DNA from: Pseudoscleropodium purum
Taxonomy: Eukaryota > Streptophyta > Bryopsida > Hypnales > Brachytheciaceae
Assembly (NCBI GenBank): GCA_963969395.1
Contig: OZ017796.1
Coordinates: 5,272,501-5,336,500, forward strand
DNA length: 64,000 nucleotides
Direction of reading: 5' to 3'
Part shown: positions 3,480 through 53,051 of the stretch, in pieces
Numbering within the stretch: position 1 is the first letter of the stretch
Layout of the letters: every line of letters starts with the position of its first letter
Made by a program: the position numbers and the translations under genes
The notes under the pieces: model-generated
Database searches by the model: none
What the model was told of the DNA's origin: nothing
Seen by the model: the letters and a program-made list of their open reading frames with translations, nothing else

Positions 3480-4545
3480 CAACAAATATATGCTTATATT
3501 CTTTGTTTGTAGTCATAATTAAATGAATAGAAAATATAGGGCTATATATCAAATTATATGAAGTTCATTGATGTAATTCAAAGTAAAAGAATTTTATTTA
3601 AAATAATTCACTTCACTAAATTTTACATAATTTATTTTTAGAAATTAAACTAATTTTGAAACTAAAATAGAAGATCTTTTGTATTAACCACTATATTTTA
3701 TTATCTAATTTTTTAAAATAGTCATATTTTCATTATTATTTTGCATATAAAGGTAGTAAAAAATGATCATACTTGCAAGAAACTTGAATATTTTATATTC
3801 ATTTGCAAGCCATTTTTTTCCTTCATGATTTGCGTTAAGATCCTTATATTATTTAGATGTTTATAATTTTTCTAACAATTTGTATGCAAGATATTTTTGT
3901 GAGATGTATATATACTAATAAATATTCTTTAAAATATGATATTATCTTCATATACATCTTCTTATAATATTTAAAAAAACCTTTGATTTAGAAAAAAATT
4001 GAATGAATATGTAATAATATTATAGTGGTTTTTTAGTTCTTCAAGAGAACATTAAAGCTACTTCTTTAGCTTTGTCAATTCTGTTTGATAAATATGGCTC
4101 GGTTAATTTAATTTGGTTTTACTTTGTTTATATACAACAATCTCTAAGTTATTTTGGAGAATTAAAATATCTAAAACTTTATGTTAATTTGTAATTCATT
4201 TTTTACAGGGTTAGAGGGTTTAGAATTTGGGATTTAGAAGTATAGGACTTAGGATGTACGAGAAGTCTTAGAAGATTGCAAAAATTAAATGGAAAAGTTC
4301 TAAGTTAAATCTTCATCCTTGTTTTTTATTTGTTAAATCACCATGACAAAGAACACATGATTAGGACTATAGGCTTTGAAAATTGTGATAATGAAAAGGG
4401 AAGTTCTTACATAAATTTTCATCTTTTCATTTATTTTGTAAATCAACATGACAAAAAAATAAAGAATTAAGAAGACAACCATGCACGAAATAATCATAAT
4501 TACTTTGGCAACCTAGAATTAGAATACCAACCAATAAATGGATGC
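1746..4545. other. AT-rich intergenic DNA, no gene seen
   Basis: No credible coding region on either strand. It holds a TA microsatellite at about 3453-3479, a cluster of nested palindromes built on TACGTAAATTTACGTA at about 2715-2762, and many poly-A/poly-T runs. It ends abruptly at the target-site duplication of the large hAT element. Confidence 0.7.
3453..3479. repeat. (TA)n microsatellite
   Basis: Uninterrupted alternating T and A over about 27 bases inside AT-rich intergenic DNA. Confidence 0.9.
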
Positions 4546-4553
4546 TTGGGTAG
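4546..4553. other. Left 8-bp target-site duplication of the large hAT element
   Basis: TTGGGTAG lies directly outside the CAGGGTTGAC terminus. The other side of the element, 9.76 kb away, is followed by TTGGTTAG (14310-14317), which matches at 7 of 8 positions. Eight-base duplications are the hallmark of hAT insertion. Confidence 0.75.
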
Positions 4554-4700
4554 CAGGGTTGACGAATCTCTACGTCTGCCCCAAAATAGCGTCCGTTTTC
4601 CAGACGTTCGGACGCACGGACGCTAGCGGACGCAGCGTCCCTCCCGCTGTCGGAAGGCAAACGCGCGGGGCCGGGCGGGGCGGACGGACGGGGCGGCTTA
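4554..4700. repeat. Left terminal and subterminal GC-rich repeats of the hAT element
   Basis: After the terminal CAGGGTTGAC the sequence continues with TACGTCTGCCCCAAAATAGC and then repeated GGACGC and CGGACGG motifs, including the palindromic CGGACGCAGCGTCC. The first ~115 bases align with the right end (reverse complement) of the short derivative at 15321-15532. Subterminal repeats of this kind bind transposase in other hAT elements; that role is inferred here. Confidence 0.75.
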
Positions 4701-5047
4701 GAAAACCCGTTTTGGGTTTTTTGTTTTGATTGTTTTCACCAATGAGAGATTGAGAGTGAAGTCATTTTGATTTTGATTTTTCTTATATTGCAATTGCGAT
4801 TCAATAGAGTTGTATATCACTATTTATGTAAAAGCTAAAATATGAAATATATTTTTAATTTTTTTTGTTGAATTTCATTTTGATTTAGAAACAAAATCAC
4901 TTTAAAATCCAGCGAGATGTATATCATCAATAAACAAACAATTTTATAATAAAATGATTGAAGAAACCATTGTCATTTGTCAACATGAGCTCCATATATC
5001 ATAAGCAACTAAACAATCAAACATCTAAATTCACATCTCCACAATTC

Positions 5048-8000
5048 TTATGGACGCCAATCCACATCTCCTCTAACCTCAGCCCTACTACTCTCTCCTG
5101 TAGCTCTCCGTTCAAAATCTTCATTATCGGAGTCATCTTCATTGTCGGAGTCATCTTCATTTTTGGAATCAAGTATCGTTGTCTCCTTCAAGTCTTCTCT
5201 CAAAGTAGGTTTACTCCCTTCTTTCGAATTTAATTTTTCTTTTTTTACTTTGACAGAACGATTAAAGGCTTTTTGAATAGGAACCTTTCTTTTCTTTCTA
5301 TTTGACAAAGTAGCAACATTTTCATCAAGAGGGGTCCTATTCTTCACTGGAGAGATAGCAAAAGGTTGCTTTTCTCTTTTCGCTTTCACGTTACTCGATT
5401 CTTGAACCATCAATCTTGATGTAGGGTCGACATGTCCATGAACGGTTATTTCCACTTTGGCTTTCTTTTGAAGTAATAGAGTGCCGTTTGTTGATTTGAT
5501 TGGTTCTTGCGCCATTCCTTTTCCTAAAATGCGATCACGCAAAGATGCCAATGGCATCCGATCACTATTTGTATCACTTAGGCTTGTAGGTGATGACGCT
5601 ACTTTCCGTAGATTACCGCCTGTAGAAATTTCTTTGGAAATGTTCACTAGGCGTTTTCCATATCCAAAGCTCTGAAAATCATCCAATCCGACCAATCGTG
5701 TGCTAACAGACTTCAACGGTATTGGTGGAAGAGCACTAGATCTCGGTACTTCAAAAATTGACTTCGTTGGCTCCTTTCCTTTATCACTCTTCACAATTGC
5801 CAAATTTGTGACTGCCATCCCAAGTGAATCACTATTTTTCTGTACCGCAATATTTGGTTCCCCCTCATCACTACTATTGTTGCCCACATCTTTTGGAACG
5901 TCCACCTCCATGACCGCATCTTCTCTTTTGTCGTTTCCTTGCACTACATTTAATGCCACAGATGGAGATTGAGAAATTAAAACTTCTTCATTTCTCCCAT
6001 CATCACCAATAGCATTCTCATTGATTTTCACCTCTTTGGCAATAGCGTTTGTCTTTTCCGATAGAATGTTTTCGCTATTCAAAAATCCCATTCCATTGCA
6101 ATATGCAGTTAAAGAAGGTAGATTCGCCTGTACCCCTACATTGTCCTCGTCTTCACAAAAAGTATATGCATCGTTTGCATTGTCGGGAACGACATCCTTG
6201 CGGTTTAGATGATAATCATGCGTATCATTCACCAAATCGGGAAAGCCTTCTATAACGTCTTCATCTCCCCATGCTGTCGCACGATTGAAGTCATCTCCGC
6301 CATCTACAACTGAAAGGGCCCTTTCCAAATCCTCGTCATCATCGTCATCATCGTCTTCTAACGTCGGCCTATCTGAATCCTTTGATTCCATCGGATCCAC
6401 ATTATCATTATACCATTTTTTTTCATCTTTTTCCTTCGATGCGTTTAATACTTTGGAATTGGTATACACGTACACCAAATCCGCTGCTCTCTTCGGCTTC
6501 AATTTATTTCGAGATTTGTTGTGAACAAAAGAATAGTTGCTCCAATTCCGTTCACATGAAGATGATGACACCGGTTGAGCCAATATCCTCTTCGCTAATG
6601 GAGCTATAAACTTGCCACATGCACCTTCAAAATTCCACCAAGCATGTGCGGACAACATTTGATCTCCCGGATTCAACATATTGTGGAATGGAGGTTCCTT
6701 GTGTCGAAAAGCTACAAATTCCTTCACTACTACTGTATATTCATCCGGTTTACATATTCTCTCCAAAACTTTCTTACATCCTGACATTGCATCTGCATCA
6801 TCCGCTAGCTCTTTGTCATGAAGAAGGTATGGATTCAAAAGAGCTGCGGCTGATTGGAGATCGTTGTCCACCATTTTTCTTCGGGCATAAAAAGACTGTA
6901 CCAATGGAATTGCAAGTTCTTCTAGCAAACAAAATGGTGGACTTTGTAATCCGTTCACGTGCTTCTCTAACTTCCTCATGATATGCAACACCTTCCCCAT
7001 GCATGGTGATTTTGAATCCAAATCGCGGAGTGCACATATGATTGATTCAACCATCTCCACATAATTGATGGACCGATTCCAAAAATGGTCATCAAGAACA
7101 CTTTTCTTCACCGCTAAGGCCAAGTCTTTTGGTTGGACTTTCGCTCCACGTTTCTTCTTGAGAGTATGTACATACTCAACCCATTGCGGATCTACCATCG
7201 TTTGTTCCAATGCCCCTCTCAATTTTGTCAAACGCTCCATCATGATAAATTTAGAGGCGAACCTTGTATCCCCAGGCATTAAGAGACCAAGATTTGGCGA
7301 ATACTTTCGCAATAGAGCTAGCGACATATGTCTCTTTCTGATAAATTTAGCTACAAGAACTCCTTTATCCAATTTGGAAGCAATCCATTTCTGTGCAGCC
7401 CAGTCCTTCAACAACAAATTCAATGCATGTACTATGCACCCTTAGTAAAAAATATGAGGATATTTTGCAAATATTACATCCCATGCAGACGGATTCACGG
7501 GAGCATTATCCGTAGTTATTAACACGACGTTCTTGGACCCCACTTGTTCAATGAACTTTTCCAACACAGCTGCCAAGTACTCCGCATTTTTTTCACAACC
7601 ACTTGTATCCACAAATCCAAGAAATTCTTCACCTGCGGATGATACAAGCATGGCATTGATGAGAGGTCGATTAGTTACGGAGCTCCATCCATCAATGGAC
7701 AATGTTGCTCTAAATTTTCGAATGCTATCTTCAGTCCGTGCATTCAACTGTGTCTGAATGTTGGTCTTCGCCTTATTCAACAACTTGTACCGAAGGTCGT
7801 GGTATGAAGGAGGAATGTATGGCCTACCGAATGCAGCCGTTTTCTTCACTGCTTCTTTAAAAGCTGGATTTTGAGCCACGGAAAATGGTATGTTCGCCGA
7901 ATAAAAAAATTTGCCCACACTGAATGTAATTTGCGTCTAAGACCTTCTTCAAACCCATTCACTAAGTTGCCTTGCCTCTGAGGCCTAGAACTTGATGCCC

Positions 8001-8421
8001 TCGGGGTTTCATGTTCACCAGAAGCTTCCGTACTCAAAGTCATTTCAGTTGTGGCATATACCATTGATACCAATTCTTTGAACGCTGGACAAGAATCTTC
8101 GTGGTCAGAATGCGACACAGTCTTTCCGGCCGAAAACTTTTGGACATCTAAAGGGCCAGGGTTGCCCTCCACATTGTCCATTACAACGCATTTTGGAAAA
8201 ACTCCTTTGCAATGCCGAAATAAATCTCGAACTGCCATTGATAATCGTGAACAAAGGCTCACCCCTTTATCATGGACACCTCTAGGCCCAGAATAGCCTA
8301 AGTGGCTGAATATACGGCTGAGCTTCCTTGACATGCTCGCTTTGCAAAGCCTACATTTTACTTTACCACCCTCTTGCACACTAAACCAAGGAGAAAAATC
8401 CCCCGTCGGTTTGGCCACCAT
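5048..8421 (-). pseudogene. hAT transposase (BED zinc finger, DUF659, hAT dimerisation), broken
   Basis: It reads from ATG at 8421 (MVAKPTGDFSPWF; the frame is open a little further upstream but without an ATG). The first ~65 residues contain a BED-type zinc finger (CRLC near the start, then an HLG and a CKG segment). Next comes a DUF659-like region with SIDGWSSVTNRPLINAML and a TTDNAP motif, then HALNLLLKDW, then the hAT C-terminal dimerisation motif SSSSCERNWS about 290 residues into the last open frame. A further ~450-residue tail follows, unusual for hAT proteins: an acidic run (seven Asp then Glu) and several basic clusters including NRKKRKVP. Two lesions are visible: a frame change near 7905-7918, next to a run of seven T, and an in-frame stop TAA at 7442-7444 between the DUF659 part and HALNLLLKDW. 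The remaining 5048-7441 frame is open. So it probably makes no full transposase. Its upstream side faces the CGGACGG block at 8.73-8.95 kb. Confidence 0.85.
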
Positions 8422-8729
8422 ACTGACAAGTGTATGTTTTACCTCAATTTCAAAATAAACCAATAAAATGTTTTAAATTTGAAACCCACAATGTGACAAT
8501 GTATACAATATCAATGAAATTAGTCACACAAAGCTTTGAAAATCAAAGCCCCCCTGTCCACCGAACTATGCATTACCAAGCAAAAGACTCAATAAATTGA
8601 TGCTCATAGCTCTTGGAAATCTTAGCGTTCGGTTTTTCGAGAGTGAATACCAAAGCTTCTCTTCTAACATTTATAGTCCCCTCCAGAAAATTAAAGGTTC
8701 ATTTTTAGGGTTTCCGTTCAAAAACAAGC

Positions 8730-8945
8730 AACGGCCCAGACGGGGCTGAAGCGGACGGGCGGACGGGGCGGGCGGACGGACCAGTCGAACGGGTCACACA
8801 GGGCAGTTGGACGGGGCGGTCAGGCGGACAGGCCAGACGGGACTATCTGCACTGTCCGCCTTCCGACGCCGTCCGCGCTTTGGACACGCCGACCGCCCCA
8901 CTTAAACACTGACCGCCGACGGCGTCCGCCCAGCTGTCCATTGGA
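8730..8945. repeat. Internal CGGACGG/CCGTCCG repeat block upstream of the transposase
   Basis: A GC-rich island about 300 bases upstream of the transposase start. The first half is rich in GGACGGGGCGG on the plus strand, the second half in its complement (CTGTCCGCC, CCGTCCGC), so the block is roughly palindromic. The motif is the same as in the element termini. It may be the transposase promoter and binding region, or the relic inner end of a formerly separate element. No GTCAACCCTG terminus is present at its outer edge. Confidence 0.7.
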
Positions 8946-9063
8946 GCATCCTAAAAGGCCGATATTACTCAAAAAGAATGGTAACATTTCCAAAAAAAAA
9001 CAGCCTAATAATCACTGCTAAATGAGGATCAATGTAATTGATTTATTATTAAAAAAAAAAAAT

Positions 9064-9102
9064 GTAAACCCTAAACCCTACACCCTAATTACCCTAAACC
9101 TT
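9064..9102. repeat. Short interstitial telomere-like repeat (AAACCCT)
   Basis: Two adjacent AAACCCTA units followed by degenerate ACACCCTAATTACCCTAAACC. It matches the plant telomere unit TTTAGGG on the other strand. Confidence 0.7.
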
Positions 9103-11100
9103 TTCTTTTCTCCTCTAAATTGTTTTACGAATGAGGGGAATGTGGTTAAGTTGAATATGTTTGGATTATTTACTCATATTATCCTTCTAAATAGGTTTTG
9201 AGAAGATCTGAAGATGGTGGGGATTTTTTTAAAGTTCATTAGGAAATCAAATGTTTTGCAGAAATAATCAATTCCTTTTTCATCATAAACAAATGAAATT
9301 TTAAAAAAAGGCCCCAATACATAATTAGAATAACAATTTAATGGATTTCAACCTCATGATATTTAATGAAAGGTTGTGTTTTCTAATTAGAAGTGCATCA
9401 CGATCTTCAAATGAACATCGAGTCTTTCATATTTTTTAATGAAATTTTGATTAGATTTGAAAACAAAGAAAAAGAATCAATGTTTTAACTTTCAAATCAT
9501 ATATGGCTATATTTTTCCTTAAAAACATAGAAAAATTCGTTACTTGAGTTGGTTGAGTAGAATACATTATACACTTATATATGTGCTATATTTATTTTGA
9601 AGGGTAATTCCAATATTCTTATTTCAGATGTTTTTAAATATTAATTTTAAAAAAGAGGGTTCATTGTTTAAAGATCTAAAAAATTGACAAACATAATTTC
9701 TATTATAAATAGGAATTGAATTCGGAATTCGAATTTTGAAATGATTCAAATGAACAAGATATTGATTATAAAATATTTCTTCGTTTGAGTTTTCAAAAAT
9801 GAATTCACGAAACAATTACAAACTTTTGAACTTAGGTATATGATATTGTTTTCAGTTTGTACTTTGTAGAATATAATACTTCAATATTAATCCTAAATAA
9901 ATGAAAAAATTCCACATGAATGAAATGTTTCTATGTATTGCACAAAGATTTCTACCAATTACTATGATAATTAAATACATTGTTACATTTCATAAAATAT
10001 TCTACATAGAAAGAAAAAATCATTTCAGTTTTTAATCATGATAAACGATGTCTTCTACTCTTTCTGTTATATGTTCGTTTTGTATAACGTGTACATTGTA
10101 CAATCTTTGAGAGCAGGGGAGTTCATTTTTGACTCTCATTGAAATAGAAAATATATTTGTGTTTGGATTTTGAAATCATTATCACATTATGTATTCTATG
10201 GTCTTGCAAGAATGCATCTTGCTCCTTCCTTTGAATCCTTTTGATATTTTTTTTTTCCTTTGCTTTCTCGTAGGGCTCTTGTTCTCTTGTTCTCTTCATT
10301 TGACCAGCCTATTTGGCTTGGCTCTTAGTTTTTGTTTTTCTTAATGCAATGGTTTATGCATATGTTATAAAAAATATATATTATTTATTTAAAATTAATA
10401 TATTGATGAACAAACGCATAAAGGCATTGAATGCTTTCACATTTAAAGTTATAAATCTATCATAAATCACTCTTGCAAATTTGAATGATTGAATCGAAAA
10501 TTTGAAAATGTAATTACAAGAGCTTTCAATTCAATCAATTGCATAAATCATAAATGTTGAAATGCAACTCGTATGAATTTAGCATCTATGAAGATTAATT
10601 CATGCCATCCACATGCAATTTTCGAATTTAATAAAATGCAATTGAGTACTTCAATTTCTTTCCCTTCAATTCTTCAAATAACATTCACTTCATATCTTTT
10701 TCTATTTGTTTATTTAATTTTTGGGAATAAATGGAGAAACCATCTTTGTCTATATTTGAACATGCACTCTTATTTGATTGATGAAGAATAGATTTATGAA
10801 ATATATAATCATTGATTTGTTCATGTTGATTTATCTAATATATTTTATATATGTATATATATTTATATATATATATCATTAAAGGAGTATGGAAGACAAG
10901 ATTGACAGATTGTGTTCAAATGTTGTTGATTTTGAAATGATTTAGTACTATATCATTTATAAGAATATTATAATGGTATTATGTTATAATATTCCTAAAA
11001 CAATTGCAACAAATATTAAAAATACATGCTAAGTTAGGTTTGTTAGCCTACCAATTGTTCATTAATAGACATAATTGAGTAGCCCTCTTAAATGAAACAC

Positions 11101-11288
11101 TCAATATCTAATATCTTACAATCCAAATGGTGGATTTGTCTAAAATTTTTTCCACATTTTTTCCAACTAATTTACTACAAGATCCTACGGTTACATATGC
11201 CCAAAAGTATTTTTCTTCCAAGACTTGGTATTTGCACTACTACTGGCAATTTTGAAGTGTTTTTAGTGAAAAGAACTTTAGGGGCTAA
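11101..11288. repeat. Truncated copy of the ~0.94-kb TTAA-bounded repeat family
   Basis: Only the right-hand ~190 bases survive. Shared landmarks are ATCTTACAATCC, TACAAGATCCTACGGTTACA, a GGTATTTGCACTA-like segment and the terminal CTTTAGGGG, here followed by CTAA instead of TTAA. It lies inside the hAT element's spacer, so the spacer contains older repeats. Confidence 0.65.
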
Positions 11289-11726
11289 ACATCTATACCA
11301 TTAGATTTTGAAAAAAGAACAATTTGCTTCATTGGGGATAACTATAAGTCCATGCTCTTTTTCGATAGCCAAAACACACTTGCAAGGACTTGGACATTTA
11401 GCGGTTTACTAAGTGATTAGACGTCAACTAATTCAATTTAATAGTAGAATTTTTATTCAACTACCTTCTTACAATTGCTTTATACACAATGCAACGTGAA
11501 TATTTGGGTACATATATTAAACGTCGCAATCCTTTCGTGAATTTTTGCACATTTTAGCTCATATCTTTGTACAAAAATATCATTTACCAAGAATTCATAA
11601 ATTTGGTCATAAAGGAAGGCTACCTTTTTTAATTTCAAATTTTACATTGAATGAATGAAAAGTTAGTTGAACTATACAGTGCCATGAAGACCTCTGTTTA
11701 TCATGCAAAATATGGGTTTAAGGTCG

Positions 11727-12080
11727 CTTTAGGGTCAAACCGCCCCGTCCGCCTTCGTACCCGTCTGCCCCGTCCGCCCTCGTACCCGTCCGCCCTCATA
11801 CCCGTCCGTCCCATCCGCCCAGACCCCCGTCCGTCTAGACCCCGTCCGCCCCGTTGACCGTCCGCCCTGTCCGTCGGATCCGACGTCTGCCCTGACCGCC
11901 CCGTCCACCCCGATACCCGTCCGCCCCACTACGGCGATGCGTCCGCCCCCCCGGACGGACGCCAGATTTGTCCGCCCGTGGCCGTCCGATTGGGCGGACG
12001 GGGCTCTAGGGTTTCGGGGAGGCGGACGGCCGATCCGTCCGCCACCCCTGGCCCGTCCGATTGGGCGGACGGTTTAGGGC
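11727..12080. repeat. Internal CCGTCCG repeat block upstream of the kinase-like gene
   Basis: A dense array of CCGTCCGCCC-type units on the plus strand, followed by two near-identical copies of CGTCCGATTGGGCGGACGG (about 11984 and 12054). Each copy is itself an inverted repeat able to form a hairpin. It ends about 200 bases before the kinase-like start codon. The outer edge reads TAGGGTCAAAC, weakly like a TAGGGTTGAC terminus, so it could be a decayed end. Promoter or transposase-binding roles are inference. Confidence 0.7.
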
Positions 12081-12282
12081 CGTCCACATTGTCACTTTTG
12101 CTTTGCCCCTTGTGAATGCAAGGTGGAGCGGAGAGCTTGGTGGTTCATCCTCCATTGGCTCCTTTCCGAGGCAAGGCAAAAGTGGTTTATTGGGGCCTCC
12201 TTGTTGCCAATTTTTTGGACACTTGCGCGTGAATTCAATTTCAAATTAAAAAATTTGATCTATATCAATTTCATTTGTTACG

Positions 12283-13710
12283 ATGACGAAGGGGAAGAAG
12301 AAGGTTGTGAAGCTTGAACATGGAGAGGGACCATCAAACTTGGAGGTAGCTCGCCAAAGTCCTTCGGAGGAATGCAAAAAATTCATGATTGAGCGCATCG
12401 TTCAATTTTATGAATCGGAAACAACATTGTCTTTAGACAATAAGTACATTAGATATCAAGAGAAGTGCATGTCTAAATTCAAGGTAGACATGACACAGAT
12501 GTTATTGGATGCATTGAATGTAGCGAAGTGGCATGACGAAATGCATAAAATGCACTTCACCAAATGTTTGGAGAACAAGGTTCATGACGCTTTGTGGAAT
12601 TCCAAAGTCATTTTGGTTAAATATGGCAAGGAATATCGACCCAATGACGCCCAATTTGAAGAAGTGATTCTGAAAGCGGACTTATTTAGGGGGCGATGTG
12701 CTCCATTCGCCAAAACGCACAATCGAGTTGGTTCAATTGGTTGGTGGAAAAGCAATGATGGAGTTGCTGAAGCGGAAAGGAACAAACGGCACCTCATAGC
12801 ACTTCCAGATACAGCACGCGTGATTGCTGTTGATGATAGAACGATGAGAGGTGGATATACAACGATTCGAAAGGTTCGTATTGAAGGATGTCCAGGAATA
12901 CTTCTTTATTGGGAGTTTGCGGCAAAGAAATCCATTCACCACCAAACTCGACCCGATCTTGCAAAGCTAGAACATCAAAATGAATCAATGGCTGTTCGAA
13001 TTCCACACGCGGGTGTGATACGGTTTGCTGCGGTGCACAGAACGACATGTGAAGGTTATGCGTATTGGTGGAATGGTGGAACTTTTCGACAAATGTTGAA
13101 TATGGATAAGGACTTTCCAGACAACATTCAAATCCGTTTGATGTATACAAATCCAACCGAAGAGGAGGTTGTAAAAGCTCACCATTTAGGACGATATCGG
13201 AAGAAGCGCACGGAGTTGACATGGGCGTTTATACATATAATGTATGCAGTGCATCTTGCTGGACATTTGCACAATGATCTTTCTCCGGACAACATCTTGT
13301 TGCATTTTCCAGAGGATGAGTCACGTGTGTACATTGGAGTTTGCGATTGGGGCATGACCACCTTAGCTTCTCAGCCAATGAAGTCTTTGTACACATTCAC
13401 ATCAACAGATGAGATGAAACAAACTTTGCAGAGGAGATGGTGGGTGGATCCACGTATTGTATATTTGCATAAAGCAGGTGCAGATGTGGAAGTCATTCTG
13501 ATGTATTCACGTAAGTCGGAAGAGTATGCCTTTCGAAAAATTGCTCGGCGGATGAATGGAAACAACATGTCAGAGGCGTATTTCAACGTGCTACGAAAAA
13601 CACCTAGTGCGACACAATTTGCTTTTCATGACTTTGCAAAAGTGTTTTATGCTTACTTGAAGCGCATTTCTTCGAAGACTGACGATGAAAATACTAGTTT
13701 GGCCATGTGA
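12283..13710 (+). CDS. Kinase-like protein carried inside the hAT element
   Basis: A single uninterrupted 475-residue ORF starting at ATG 12283 and ending with TGA. Residues 1-180 have no domain I recognise and begin with a basic stretch (MTKGKKKVVK). Kinase-like landmarks follow in order: a degenerate glycine-rich segment GGYTTIRKV (190-198), EFAAKKS (211-217) as candidate ATP-binding lysine, HNDLSPDN (330-337) matching the catalytic loop HxDxxxxN with Asp332 and Asn337, and CDWG (354-357) in place of DFG. The activation-segment end is atypical: RRWWVDP (384-390) stands where APE is usual. Asn in place of the Arg of HRD and Trp in place of the Phe of DFG make it a divergent kinase. Activity is possible because the Lys, Asp and Asn are present, but substrate and role are unknown. 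It diverges from the broken transposase and is intact while that gene is not. It could be a captured host kinase, a true second element gene, or a host-like kinase family repeatedly carried by this transposon. Confidence 0.8.
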   Translation: MTKGKKKVVKLEHGEGPSNLEVARQSPSEECKKFMIERIVQFYESETTLSLDNKYIRYQEKCMSKFKVDMTQMLLDALNVAKWHDEMHKMHFTKCLENKVHDALWNSKVILVKYGKEYRPNDAQFEEVILKADLFRGRCAPFAKTHNRVGSIGWWKSNDGVAEAERNKRHLIALPDTARVIAVDDRTMRGGYTTIRKVRIEGCPGILLYWEFAAKKSIHHQTRPDLAKLEHQNESMAVRIPHAGVIRFAAVHRTTCEGYAYWWNGGTFRQMLNMDKDFPDNIQIRLMYTNPTEEEVVKAHHLGRYRKKRTELTWAFIHIMYAVHLAGHLHNDLSPDNILLHFPEDESRVYIGVCDWGMTTLASQPMKSLYTFTSTDEMKQTLQRRWWVDPRIVYLHKAGADVEVILMYSRKSEEYAFRKIARRMNGNNMSEAYFNVLRKTPSATQFAFHDFAKVFYAYLKRISSKTDDENTSLAM

Positions 13711-14109
13711 TTACGCGATTTTCTAATACATATCGTTGGCCGATGCCAGATGAACATTTCCGCCATTTATATTAGATTGGTAGTGCAGAAGTAGTAGTTG
13801 AATAGGTTATATAGGCATTAAAAATTAGTTTAGAAATATAGAGTTGGAATGAAAAAAATTATATGTGCAATTAGCCAAATGTGCACAATGTATGGTATTC
13901 TACATTAAATTGAATACATTTTGCCCATATTGATTATGTTTGTATTTGTGTTGATCTCGATTTTTTAAATAGTATATATATATATTTGAAGTCACAAACT
14001 TTTTTAGTTTGCCTTCTGAAAATGAATTGGAATTTTTTCATAGTTTCAAGACTATCATGGACTCATGGTCAAACTTTATAATCTTTTAAATTGTTTAAAG
14101 ATTAAGGGA

Positions 14110-14309
14110 GTGACCGCGGGGCAGTTTGGGTAGGGAAGTCGGGGGAAATAGGGCCGTCAAAGCGGACGGGGCGGACAGACGAGGCAAACGGGGCGGACGG
14201 GGTGACAGGCGGATGGGGTGGTCCCGGCGGACGCTGCGTCCGCGGGGACCGCGAATGTCAGCGGACGCTGCGGACACAGCGTCCGCGTCCAGACGTCGTG
14301 TCAACCCTG
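14110..14309. repeat. Right terminal and subterminal GC-rich repeats of the hAT element
   Basis: CGGACGGGGCGG-type units, then CGGACGCTGCGTCCGC palindromes, ending in GTCAACCCTG. The last ~60 bases, reverse-complemented, match the left end of the short derivative at 15321 almost base for base, including CGCGGACGCTGTGTCCGC and CTGACATTCGCGG. Confidence 0.75.
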
Positions 14310-14317
14310 TTGGTTAG
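14310..14317. other. Right 8-bp target-site duplication of the large hAT element
   Basis: TTGGTTAG directly follows the terminal GTCAACCCTG and matches TTGGGTAG at 4546-4553 at 7 of 8 positions. Confidence 0.75.
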
Positions 14318-14879
14318 TTAGGATGCATTAAAAATATAGTAAAATAAATAAATGTAAATTGCATTAGAAGTTGCAAAATACATATTTAATTAAGTTCTAC
14401 CATTAATATGGTAGAATTGTAAAATATATCCCACCAAAATAGAAAATGCATTGCTAACATCTAAAACATATATTTGCTGCCAAAGATATATATCATATTA
14501 TCAAAGTTAATGTTTGAGAGTGAGCTTAGATTGTTCAAATCAAGTTTTTGGTCTAGTTGATTTAGTTTTCTTACAACCAACCCACCTATACCACCATACA
14601 AAACTGTAGATTAAATTGGTAACTATTTGGATTTACCCAACTAATAGTTATGTTCGTTCCAAAGGAGATCTTTTAAATAGGATTGTTTCTAATTTAATCA
14701 AAGCTAATCCCAATAGGACATTGCAACATAAGCACAAGGACAAAAAAAATAAGACTCTTTTATCCTTTATCACTAGGTTATTCTCACAAGGTAGTCTAAT
14801 TACACAATTTGACACTCCACTTAAATAGACACAAAAAAATATAGTAGCTCCCAATTAATATTTGAACTTCAAATCTTCA

Positions 14880-16760
14880 AGCTTTTCCAAATTGGCTCAA
14901 CAACACCATAGCTTGGCAAAGCACTTGTCTTCCAAATTGGTCTTTTCAGCTTCCACTAGCTCAACAAGATCTTTTTTCACCTACTTGGGATTTACTACTT
15001 TTGCTTCATAGTCCTCCATTTCTTCTCACATTCTTTCAAATCATGCAACTAATCAATTTCTTTACCAACTCGGAAATTAATATTAAATATTCAATCATCA
15101 ACACCTAATAGGAATAAATTGACACTACAAACAGATTCATCAATTACTCCAATTCGTATTCTAAAAAAACATCATAGGTCATGACACCAACTTCCGACTT
15201 GGAAATTAATTAAACTTTAGTTTTAATAAAATACTCCAAATTGGGCAAAATAAATCACATGTGTTACACAGATTTCATTCCCAATTCGTAACACAAAATA
15301 ATTTCCCCCCCCCACTGAACTAGGGTTGACAGGACGGTCGGACGTCCAGACGCGGACGCTGTGTCCGCAACGTCCACTGACATTCGCGGTCCGCCCGTCC
15401 GCCCCGTCGTATCCGCCCCGCCCGTCCGCCTTTCGACGGTGGGAGGGACGCTGCGTCCGTTGGTGTCTGTGAGGACGGACACCCGGGTTACGAACGCTAT
15501 TTTGGGGCGGACGTACTGATTTGTCAACCCTGCAGTGAACACCAATTTGACAAATAATTCTCTTTATATTATGCCGAATTGGTGAAAATATCACCGTTAT
15601 TACAACTTGAGCTTAACAGCTTAATTATCCATTTTTCAACTTCCCAAATTGATTCTAATTTAATAAGTCCATTCTTCTGATTTCCAACTAGGACTTCTCC
15701 TTCTTAACCATCATACGATCTTCTTCTAATTTCTAATATTCCCAATTGCTTCAACTTCCACCCAACTACTCTTCATCATCATTAACATCCTAATTTTCAA
15801 TTAGGACTACTCTGGTTTCCACTACATCGCTCCAGTTTATCTTCTTCTCTCTCAACCATCAGCTAAAAAACTAATGCACAACTAACTCCTACAAGTTTCA
15901 CTCACTTCAACTAGGAAATATTAAATCTGGTTGAAACTACTACCATACTCATACATCAATACTCCTTAAAACCTCTCCATTATCACAAACGCAGCCCAGA
16001 TTGATTCTTCAAATTGAAAATATTATCCTCATTCAACTGGACACTTCCTGCATACATCACACTTCCTCCAACTAGGACTAACTCAAAAATATCAAGCATC
16101 CATGCTGACAAACTCAGCTCTTCAATTAAGACTCATACACGCAATCAAACATTTTCACATAAAAGCAACAAAAAAAGAACATATACAACTCAACAAGCTC
16201 GGATACGACTAGATTTCATTCAACAGACGGTAAGTAAAAATAAACACAAAATTAGCCCAAATAGGAAATCCCAAACTAGACGGTTACCCATTCGGAGAGG
16301 ATGAGTAAACTACCAACAATCCATTTGGAACCACACAAATCCAAAATACACATAACTGACCCCACTTATTTAACTGCAGCCTAACTGGACAACTGCAACC
16401 ATCCTAATTGGAATTTTCACATACCAACTCTCCACTGACTACCAACTTCGAATTCTTTCACACAAACCAGTCAATAACCACCTACTAGGAAGTCTCCTCA
16501 TCAGCATACATCACATCCAACTTGGATCTTCTCCATCTTCTCCAATTTGGATTCCAATTTGGCTTAAATGAACTGGATTGAACATTTAAACTCCAAGTTG
16601 GTTTACAGACCAAAAAATATACTTAAATTCCCTTCCAATTCAGTTAAAATGTACACAAAAACACCCAAATTGGATAACAAACATACAAAATCATAACAAA
16701 AAAACTCAAAATATTCACACAAAAAATCAAAAATTCACTCCAACTTGGATATCTACAAAA
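14880..16760. repeat. Region rich in a near-palindromic CCAA(n)TTGG-like motif
   Basis: Roughly thirty variants of CCAAATTGG, CCAACTAGGA, CCAACTTGGA and CCAATTCG occur at irregular spacing of about 30-70 bases. Between them the plus strand is poor in G and rich in A and C. No open frame fits. It resembles a strongly decayed tandem array or a motif-rich transposon interior. The short hAT derivative at 15321 is inserted in the middle of it. Origin unknown. Confidence 0.5.
15321..15532. mobile_element. 212-bp non-autonomous (MITE-like) derivative of the hAT family
   Basis: It starts TAGGGTTGAC and ends GTCAACCCTG. The flanks are CACTGAAC (15313-15320) and CAGTGAAC (15533-15540), an 8-bp duplication with one mismatch. 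Its left ~75 bases match the right end of the 9.76-kb element. Its right ~130 bases match that element's left end (shared CCCCAAAATAGCGT and the CAGCGTCCCTCCC segment), so it is an internally deleted copy in inverted orientation. It has no coding capacity and would depend on a transposase elsewhere. Confidence 0.88.
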
Positions 16761-32787: not shown

Positions 32788-33722
32788 TTAACCCTTATAT
32801 GCTCAAATTGTGCTTTTTGGCAACATAATGATTTGGGTAGCTCATTACAAATAGAATTTTTTTTTCTTTGAAATTTTTGATACAATATATGCTTGAGGAG
32901 TAGCTTTAAAAACTTGAAATTTTTCATGAATTTAGAATCATAATTACAAAGTTATTGCATCATCTGCAATTTTCATTGCTTAGTAGAGAGTCCAAAAATT
33001 TCTTACAAAAATAATTTTTTAAGAAATAAAATTTGAAATGGATTTTCTAGATTCGTAGATTTGTAGATAGTTTTGAATCATTCCATTTTGATGAATGAGA
33101 TGAAAGTTATAAGAATTGAAGTCTTAGTTTGCAGACAATTATGAATTATTTACTCTAAAATAAACTTTAAAGTCCTTATTTAACTCAATTTGTAATATTT
33201 GGGAAAATAAAATAGAATCAAAGGATGTCAATTGTTTATTATAACATTACAACCATTGGAATTGGCATTTTTCAATTCCAGGACTAAATTCTTAACAAAT
33301 TAGTATTTCGAATCACTCTCTATTTCTTTTCATTTACTATTTTTTTCTTGTATGTCGCACAATTCTAAATGATCTAAAAATTTTCAAGCATGTAGTCAAC
33401 TTGCTTTGAAGAATGAATGAAAAGAAACACCACCATTTTGGACTTCTTTTTTCATGCAAATGTGACCTTGTGAAGTGTAGCTGCACATTTTTTTGAAGGG
33501 CCAAAAAAAGATTTTTATCACTTCAAACTTTAATACCTTGCAATCTACATAGTGGACATTTTTGAAATTCTCTCTACAACTTCTCAAACCAAATTACTAC
33601 AAGATCCTACGGTTACATGTGCCTCAAAATGTTTTTTTTTTCTAAAATTTGGTACTTGTACTAGAAATGGTAATTTTCAAGCGTCTTTGGTGAAAATATA
33701 GTCCAAAACATTTAGGGGTTAA
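32788..33722. mobile_element. TTAA-bounded repeat family, copy A
   Basis: Starts TTAACCCTTATATGC and ends CATTTAGGGGTTAA. The internal landmarks are shared with the other copies: TTTTTGGCAACATA near the start, TTTTCTAGATT, a CATTCCATTTTGATGAATGA segment, ACATTACAACCATTGGAATT, and near the end TACAAGATCCTACGGTTACA. It is 935 bases with no coding capacity. Confidence 0.7.
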
Positions 33723-34836: not shown

Positions 34837-35773
34837 TTAACCCCTAAAGGACCCGCACGCGTTTTTTGGCTACGTAGAAATTTTGGGCAGGTCATTGTGA
34901 CCAGAAATTTTCATAATTTAGGCTAAAATTTTAATAGAAGGTGTGGATGAGGATTATCTTTCATCTGCAACAAATTTCATGACATTTGGAAATAGGAATC
35001 AAAAGTTATAGCCTAATATGTTATTTTTTTTTTGTAACTCGGCAGTTTGGGCAGATTAAAAAAAATCACTTTTTTCAGAAACCAAAATTTGAAATTGGTT
35101 TTCTAGACTTATATATACAAGGAAAGCTTTGAGTCATTCCATTTTGATCAACAAATCAAAAGTCATGAGGATTTTTTGTTTGCGGGCAGTTATGGATTGC
35201 CTACCCTGAAATAAATTTTGAAAATCCTTTATCTTACCCAATTTTCAATATTTTTGAAAAAAAACAAAACACTAGGATGTAAATTGTTTATTACAACATT
35301 TCAACCATTGGGATTGTCATTTTTCAATTCCATATTTTAATTCTTAATAATTTAGTATTTTGAATCATTGTCTACTACTACCTACTTACTATTTTTTTCC
35401 TATATGTTGTACAATTCCAAATGATCTCAAATTTTTCAAGCATGTAGAAAAATTGTCTACAAAAAAGAATCCTAAGAAGCACCATCATTTTGGTCATTTT
35501 TTTCATAGAAAAGTGAGCTTGTGAAGTGCAGCTGCTTAGCTTTTTGCAAGGGGAAAAAAATGATTTTAGTGAATTTGAATGCTTATATCTTGCAATCCAT
35601 GCAGTGGAAATGTCTGAAATTCTTACCACATGTTTTTGGTACTACATAGTACAAGATCCTATGGTTACATATATCAAAAAAGTTTTTTTTTTCAAAAATT
35701 TGCTACTTGTACTAAACATGGCAAATTTTGAGCTTTTTCGGTGAAAACATAGTCATGGAACTTTAGGGGTTAA
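34837..35773. mobile_element. TTAA-bounded repeat family, copy B
   Basis: Starts TTAACCCCTAAAGGACC and ends CTTTAGGGGTTAA, giving a perfect 13-base inverted end including TTAA. It is 937 bases and shares the same internal landmarks, with TACAAGATCCTATGGTTACA near the right end. This is the best-preserved copy at its termini. Confidence 0.75.
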
Positions 35774-39318: not shown

Positions 39319-40271
39319 TTAACCCCTAAAGCAAGATTCTACATTTTTTTTGGCAACATAGTGAGTTTGGGAAGCTCCATAGTATGGAATTTATTTTTCT
39401 TTGAAATTTCCACACAAAATGTGCTTGAGGAGTAGCTTTAAGGCCTAGCAACTTTCATAACTTTTGACTACATGGTTAAAAAGTTATTATATGATATGTA
39501 ATTTTCATTGTTGAGTAAGTAAGTTGTCCAACGAAAAGAATATTTTTCTCAAAAAAATCACTTTTGTAAGAAATAAATATTTGAAATTGATTTTCTAGAT
39601 TTATATATAGAGAGAGAGAAAGCTAAGAATCATTCCGTTTTGATTAATGAGATGAAAGTTACTAAGAGTTTTAGTTTGTGGGAAATTAAAGGATCTTTAA
39701 ATACTCTAAAATAAACTTTGAAAATCTTTATTTAACTCAAATTTTAATATTTTTGGAAAAAAAATTATAAAATGTAGATTGTTTATTACAAAATAAAATC
39801 ATCAAAATTGGAATTCTTCAATTCCATAACTAAATTCTTAACAATTTAGTATTTTGAATCATTCGCTACTTTGTTTTACTTACTATTTTTTTCCTATATA
39901 TATTGTACAATTCCAAATTAGCTGAATTTTTTCAAGCATGTAGCCAACTTGCCTTAAAGAATGAATCCAAAGATTGAAGCACCTTCATTTTAAACATTAT
40001 TTCATACAAATTTGACCTTGTGAAGTGCAGCGAGCTATTTTTTTGCATAGCCAAAATTTTTTTTTTTATCAATTCAAACGTTGATATCTTACAATCTACA
40101 TTGAGGAAATTTCTGAAACTTTTTCTACATCTTTTCAAACCAACTTACTACAAGATCCTATGGTTACATGTATTCAAATTTAATTTTCATCTAAAATTTG
40201 GTACCAGTATTAGAAATGGCAATTTTAGAGTGTCTTTGACAAAAATACAATAAAAAATTTCTAGGGGTTAA
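39319..40271. mobile_element. TTAA-bounded repeat family, copy C
   Basis: Starts TTAACCCCTAAAGCAAG and ends TTTCTAGGGGTTAA. It is 953 bases. Internal landmarks are conserved, including TTTTCTAGATTTATATATA and TACAAGATCCTATGGTTACA. Only about 360 bases separate it from copy E. Confidence 0.7.
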
Positions 40272-52120: not shown

Positions 52121-53051
52121 TTAATTCCTAAAACACCAAACTACATTTTTTGGCAATATAAAATTTTGGGGTAGGTGTGTGTGACTAGAGATTTCAATGT
52201 TTATGGCCCAAATTTTAATAGATGGTGTGGACAAGGAATATCTTTCATATTCATTAAATTTTAGGACATTTGGAAATATGAATCAAAAGTTATGGCCTAA
52301 TGTGCAGTTTGTTTTTCAATTCAAGTATTCCAAGCATATCTAAAAAAATCATTTTTTTTCCAAAATCCAAATTTGAAATTGGTTTTCTAGATTTATATAT
52401 ACATAGAAATCTTTGAATCATTTCATTTTGATCAATGAGTCAAAAGTTATGAGGTGTTTTAGTTTGCGGGTAGTTATGGATACTCTACTCCAAAATAAAC
52501 TTTGAAGTTTTTTATTGAACTCAATTTTCAATATTTTTGGAAAAAAATTAAAAAATTAAAAGAAGATTTTTTATTACAACATTATCACCATTGGGATTGG
52601 AATTTTTCAATTCCATAAATAAATTTTTAACAATTTAGTATTTTTAATCATTCTCTACATCTTTCTATTTAGTACTATTTTTTCCTATATGTTGTACAAT
52701 TTCAAATGATCTAAACTTTTTTGAGCATGTAGCCAACATGAATTGAAAAATGATACCAAAAAATCACCACCATATTAAACAATTTTTCATACAAATGTGG
52801 CCTTGTGAAGTGCAACTGCTCGATTTTTTGCAAGGACCAAAAAATGATTTTCGTTGCTTCAAATGCTAATATCTTGCAATCTACATCGTGGAAATTTCTG
52901 AAATTTTTTCTTCATCTTTTCAAACTAGTGTAATACAAGATCCTACATTTAAATGTGTCCAAAAATGTCTCTATCCTAAAATTTGAAAATTATACAAGAA
53001 ATGGTAGTTTTGGAGCTGGTGAAAACATAGTCAAAGAACTTTTGGGGTTAA
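52121..53051. mobile_element. TTAA-bounded repeat family, copy D
   Basis: Starts TTAATTCCTAAAACACC and ends ACTTTTGGGGTTAA. It is 931 bases. Shared landmarks include TTTTTTGGCAATATA, TTTTCTAGATTTATATATA, the CATTTTGATCAATGAGTCAA segment, ACATTATCACCATTGGGATT and TACAAGATCCTACATTTAAA. Confidence 0.65.

Follow-up and report, generated by a model that had tools for sequence, protein, structure and literature searches.

A high-copy two-gene hAT transposon family with a protein kinase-like gene in the moss Pseudoscleropodium purum

The simple DNA transposon of plants is usually pictured as a transposase gene together with its ends. In the genome of the moss Pseudoscleropodium purum, a stretch of 64,000 nucleotides (contig OZ017796.1, 5,272,501 to 5,336,500; hereafter the window, in whose numbering all positions below are given) contains a hAT transposase gene and, on the opposite strand, a kinase-like open reading frame (ORF), which a first-pass annotation had placed within one and the same insertion. 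Do the two genes form a single mobile unit, and is the kinase one of its working parts?

A single hAT insertion with two divergent genes

A single hAT insertion of 9,756 bp occupies positions 4554-14309 of the window. Its terminal inverted repeats (TIRs), CAGGGTTGAC on the plus strand (4554-4563) and GTCAACCCTG on the minus strand (14300-14309), were identical at 10 of 10 positions, and the two copies of the flanking target-site duplication (TSD), TTGGGTAG (4546-4553) and TTGGTTAG (14310-14317), were identical at 7 of 8. The consensus of hAT TIRs is (C/T)A(G/A)GG, and the left TIR fits this short type; a TSD agreeing at 7 or more of 8 fixed positions has a chance probability of 3.8e-4, with the TIR not yet counted. 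Together with the hAT domains on the minus strand and the kinase on the plus strand, these termini bore out the proposal of one insertion holding both genes.

GC-rich CGGACG/CGTCCG arrays were found at four places in the element, that is, next to the left (4578-4700) and right (14111-14299) ends, upstream of the transposase start (8726-8950) and upstream of the kinase start (11733-12080), while an AT-rich spacer (8951-11732) separates the divergent genes. The annotated layout, a divergent pair with a CGGACG-type block before each gene, was thus confirmed, and of 12 full-length copies checked none lacked any of the four arrays. Non-coding and repetitive, the arrays varied more in length among these copies (126-520 bp) than any other part of the element, with ranges of 126-229 bp for the left-end region (4554-4705 in the window), 138-306 bp for the array upstream of the transposase and 256-520 bp for that upstream of the kinase; the spacer measured 2,750-2,813 bp in the 12 aligned copies. 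No Rfam match was obtained up to an E-value of 0.1 for the spacer or for the wider region 4400-16000. A repeat of some 100-190 bp, the copies of which are 72-80% alike, is dispersed through the window, occurring once in the spacer (11101-11272) and again at 33523-33696, 35582-35773, 40084-40237 and 52866-52964. The sequence AAACCCTAAACCCTA, which we take to be telo-box-like, was seen at 9066-9100, upstream of the transposase, and again upstream of the accessory gene of the second hAT family described below (L055:3986-4010).

Outside the element, a 212-bp MITE on the minus strand (15321-15532), with its own TSD CACTGAAC/CAGTGAAC (7/8), consists of both outer ends of the family fused directly (138 bp at 77% and 68 bp at 85% identity to the outer ends). 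As it joins the same two outer ends, it supports these as the true ends of the family.

Copies were sought in the window's own genome (313 Mb). With the DNA of the window kinase as query, 40 of 1007 initial candidates were scored, namely the window and 39 others at 96-97% identity, and a total of 20 copies were read: the window, 17 of the 39 (K1-K17), and D1 and D2 from a second length class. K1-K17 were selected by kinase similarity and are uninformative on the share of hAT copies lacking a kinase. The kinase and a hAT transposase occurred together in all 20 copies, the latter only partially in the DNA read for K4, K12, K14, K16 and K17. For 14 of the 20 (9,496-10,094 bp) the sequence read covered both ends, and every one of these 14 ran from an outer CAGGG, homologous to the left TIR of the window, to an outer CCCTG, enclosing transposase, spacer and kinase. 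They lay at 14 different sites, with TSDs matching at 8/8 in 12 copies, 7/8 in the window and 6/8 in K8, and the perfect 8-bp duplication in 12 of the 14 indicated that the unit moves whole. None of the 14 stopped at an inner GC block, whether near 8950 or near 11725, as would be expected of separate elements. In K4, K14 and K16 the homology ended within the transposase gene and not at those blocks, and in K5, K12 and K17 the element extended beyond the fetched stretch. The comparison showed that positions 4554-14309 represent a single, decayed member of a high-copy hAT family, the elements of which carry two genes and measure about 10 kb.

Transposase and kinase genes and their constraint

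The transposase gene (5048-8421, minus strand) encodes a BED-like finger (weak Pfam match, E = 0.047), a DUF659 domain (1.8e-24; 86.6 bits against a cut-off of 34.7), a dimerisation domain (Dimer_Tnp_hAT, 5.7e-9; 36.1 bits against 21.4) and a long, acidic, serine-containing C-tail, the end of which is conserved among relatives. In an alignment of 24 sequences the DGW, DNA and CERNWS columns were almost invariant, and we take these to hold the D, D and E catalytic residues of hAT transposases. The window gene is broken by a frame change (about 7846-7936) and an in-frame stop (7442-7444), and a frame of at least 1000 codons was found in 2 of the 19 other copies. In K6, however decayed the window copy may be, an open transposase frame of 1155 codons stands together with an open kinase frame and a perfect TSD. 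Judged by its TSD, TIR, domains and catalytic columns, the window element fits the hAT superfamily (Ac/Ds, Tam3, grapevine Hatvine), with which it shares the 8-bp TSD, the short CAGGG-type TIR, the DUF659 and dimerisation domains and the MITE derivatives.

The ORF on the plus strand (12283-13710), consisting of a helical N-terminal part and a protein-kinase domain (about residues 170-475), had been annotated as kinase-like and put forward for a profile search. The search did return Pfam Pkinase (4.5e-5), but its 23.4 bits lie below Pfam's own cut-off of 31.7; likewise, the relatives P0001, P0034 and P0038 fell below the cut-offs for both Pkinase and PK_Tyr_Ser-Thr, and P0023 and P0056 just passed the latter. 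The kinase-like character was upheld by a predicted structural model with a protein-kinase fold and by the residues K215, E234, D332 and N337, invariant among 41 aligned sequences, and D355, present in at least 90% of them, which are presumably the catalytic Lys, Glu, Asp and Asn and the metal-binding Asp. These residues were retained in relatives as distant as 24% identity. The element kinase resembles TK/TKL-like protein kinases in its fold and its conserved K, E, D, N and D, but differs from them in its helical N-terminal part and in having HND and DWG in place of the usual HRD and DFG. From fold and catalytic residues, it is a protein kinase with predicted phosphotransfer activity.

The annotated extent of the ORF, in contrast, did not stand, because the window copy is cut short by a frameshift (1,495 bp against 1,496 bp in all 17 K copies); the conserved tail resumes in another frame (from 13711), placing the true end near 13777. 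Among the 19 other copies, 9 kept the kinase open over 480 codons or more, including the conserved end (in K8 the frame starts late). A distant-kinase query scored 82 of 1388 candidates, all 82 of which matched, 28 of them without an internal stop. In D1 (L051/L052, G000:C42), a MITE-like insert of 317 bp from the same family was observed in array 3, which precedes the kinase gene; its TSD (7/8) is weak evidence, lying in repetitive sequence.

Relatives of the transposase in IMG/VR, and of the kinase in IMG/VR and GTDB contigs, were not confirmed. The transposase gave two matches in GTDB contigs, L001 and L002, both of which look like eukaryotic contaminants; L002, filed under Halorubrum, holds pieces of a hAT transposase. 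Matching kinase and transposase hits to each other through the length of their contigs, by eye over the similarity-search lists, yielded one case (27,639), and the profile search added none. One kinase with 74% identity (P0002) comes from a contig of 2,919 bases assigned to a bacterial MAG (Bacilli bacterium IMZ40_01335) and is most likely plant contamination.

In a comparison between subfamilies, the kinase of D1 (508-class) against eight open-frame kinases gave dN/dS values of 0.31-0.41, with upper bootstrap limits of at most 0.71, and the transposases of K6 and D1 gave 0.44 over the first 620 codons and 1.20 over the C-tail. Pooling 12 full-length copies gave 0.51 (kinase), 0.47 (transposase core) and 0.81 (C-tail); by both measures most of the C-tail, a candidate substrate of the kinase, shows little constraint. 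In a McDonald-Kreitman-like test of 18 close copies, restricted to ungapped codons represented in at least 6 of them, the ratio of nonsynonymous to synonymous changes (N/S) was higher for singleton than for shared changes in the transposase core (2.95 vs 1.43, p = 0.049); the difference was not significant for the kinase (2.60 vs 1.63, p = 0.13), and the values were 1.79 vs 1.50 for the DUF659 part (p = 0.68) and 2.41 vs 3.47 for the C-tail (p = 0.29). The singleton changes of the kinase look neutral, the N/S of 2.60 falling within the 2.47-3.50 expected, as for dead copies. The kinase fold, the conserved catalytic residues and the dN/dS of 0.31-0.41 between subfamilies support the view that the kinase has long belonged to the element, is maintained there by selection and is no fresh passenger. 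By these rough measures, its maintenance in active lineages seems comparable in strength to that of the transposase core.

A second hAT family with a RING-finger gene

The GTDB contig L001, filed under a Synechococcales MAG and probably a eukaryotic contaminant, carries a plant-type hAT transposase related to that of the window followed by a RING-H2 ORF on the same strand (L001:32-5395). With this RING ORF as query, an amplified family was detected in the window's genome (54 rows from 52 scored of 1524 candidates; 26-34% identity in the best rows). One copy (L055, which with L056 makes up G000:C44:73000-87200) contains a RING ORF of 760 codons and an upstream spacer flanked by GC-rich arrays; a further RING ORF, partial and in inverted orientation, is located at L055:8704-9582. 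The RING match scored 23.8 in L055, below the Pfam cut-off of 27.3, and 36.9 in L001, above it.

By analogy with the layout of the kinase element, a transposase was predicted further left on the minus strand, and it was found in the next 4.5 kb (L056). This transposase of 975 codons (DUF659, 2.3e-36; hAT dimerisation, 1.2e-9) was 38-44% identical to that of the window over two larger pieces and 25% over an N-terminal piece, and it recurred at 96-100% in 30 places of the genome, mostly adjoining a RING gene. Within 15 kb of the 54 RING rows, a transposase of this type was present for 33, divergent in 29 and on the same strand in 4 more degraded cases, and absent for 21. Among the best 31 rows, 28 were paired with a transposase, all divergently and with gaps of 3.2-7.6 kb, where about 0.16 would be expected by chance. 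As the 4 same-strand pairs and the arrangement in L001 illustrate, the divergent layout is not universal. TIRs and a TSD were not found in the one copy examined (L055/L056). A second hAT family of this genome is thus organised like the first, but has a RING-finger gene where the first has the kinase.

Origin and proposed role of the accessory genes

The reading of the locus as two adjacent elements, one with the transposase (4554 to about 8950) and one with the kinase (about 11725 to 14309), could appeal to the GC arrays that flank each half as if they were its own subterminal regions. No TIR within one mismatch was present at the inner edges, though, a weak TAGGGTCAAA at 11730 had no matching TSD by eye, and the spacer belongs to the unit in the 12 aligned copies; side-by-side elements were rejected on the finding that all 14 two-ended copies, at their different sites, run from outer end to outer end, and the probability left to them is close to nil. 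An older composite origin, in which two related elements or nested MITEs fused long ago around a captured spacer and have since moved as one, is rather unlikely but fares far better: the insert in array 3 of D1, weak as its TSD is, illustrates a route by which end arrays may become internal, whereas the window retains no clear remnant of inner TIRs and no ancestral unfused form was found.

It might also be argued that the kinase is a passenger, a host gene that was acquired by transduplication in an ancestral hAT and has been carried along without benefit. Plant DNA transposons often capture gene pieces, and the recent changes in the kinase look neutral. The Hatvine-6 hATs of grapevine contain variable host sequence (PMC2528002). 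Against such a passenger stand the presence of the kinase in all 20 copies read, the catalytic residues kept down to 24% identity and the constraint between subfamilies, which together render it improbable. A stronger competitor, though less likely than not, is that the kinase or RING protein counters host methylation or RNA silencing in a VANC-like role, with the fast-changing GC arrays as its targets. The arrays would suit this, being non-coding, repetitive and the most variable in length, as the targets of VANC are reported to be tandem repeats that differ between related elements (PMC5735166); the end arrays could equally be transposase-binding sites.

We favor, with a probability of roughly 0.8 for the whole, the joint reading of a high-copy two-gene hAT family in which the kinase is maintained and is an element-encoded regulator. 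The regulatory role is backed by selection on the kinase and by the sister family with a RING gene in the same slot. We infer from sequence that the kinase acts on the transposase of the element or on host silencing or repair. It may phosphorylate its own transposase, with the long acidic, serine-containing C-tail as candidate site, or alternatively a host protein of the silencing or end-repair machinery, and the result would be more expression and movement of the element. The motif arrays would be putative protein-binding sites tying both promoters to the ends, and may bind the transposase, coupling transcription of both genes to transposition.

The ULP genes carried by some MULE and CACTA transposons, and VANC of the VANDAL elements, are the nearest analogies. 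The ULP-carrying MULE and CACTA elements, including the KAONASHI (KI) MULEs in which the ULP protease domain lies in reverse orientation to the transposase, are likewise DNA transposons with an enzyme of post-translational modification (PMC2528002). They belong to other superfamilies and carry another enzyme, whereas here a kinase or a RING finger resides in a hAT. The VANDAL elements of Arabidopsis likewise combine an accessory protein with tandem-repeat arrays varying between related elements (PMC5735166), but VANC is a sequence-specific anti-silencing protein, while the function of the element kinase is putative. Kinase-type genes have been associated with MULEs in Rhizophagus irregularis and maize, where they are nearby or captured (PMC8647823); here the kinase is an integral, conserved gene inside defined TIRs. 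The hAT families of grapevine are given as 2-5.5 kb, one of them variable (PMC2528002), against about 10 kb here, where the element also has a second, full-length gene for an enzyme that is under selection. No hAT with a kinase gene was named in the titles and abstract openings returned by literature searches, which is weak evidence of novelty as most subscription papers lay outside their coverage.

Since the sister family has a RING-finger gene in the same slot, post-translational control is suggested, by analogy, as the purpose of that slot. More broadly, and tentatively enough that we place it somewhat short of even odds, a clade of large plant hATs may share a two-gene organisation in the order transposase, array, spacer, array and accessory gene, with the accessory slot occupied by protein-modifying regulators that differ between families, by a kinase in one and by an E3-like RING protein in another. 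This exchangeable post-translational module, addressed by the arrays of the element itself, would license transposition or blunt host silencing.

In one family a kinase under selection, and in the sister family a RING protein, form part of the hAT element and have multiplied with it, a pattern suggesting that such elements supply regulatory enzymes of their own. Amplified families of kinase-like genes annotated in mosses, the Ceratodon cluster among them, may belong to transposons and not to the host. If the kinase and the RING protein control the transposase or the host defence, these families would offer a tractable system for the study of signalling enzymes that transposons deploy against their hosts.
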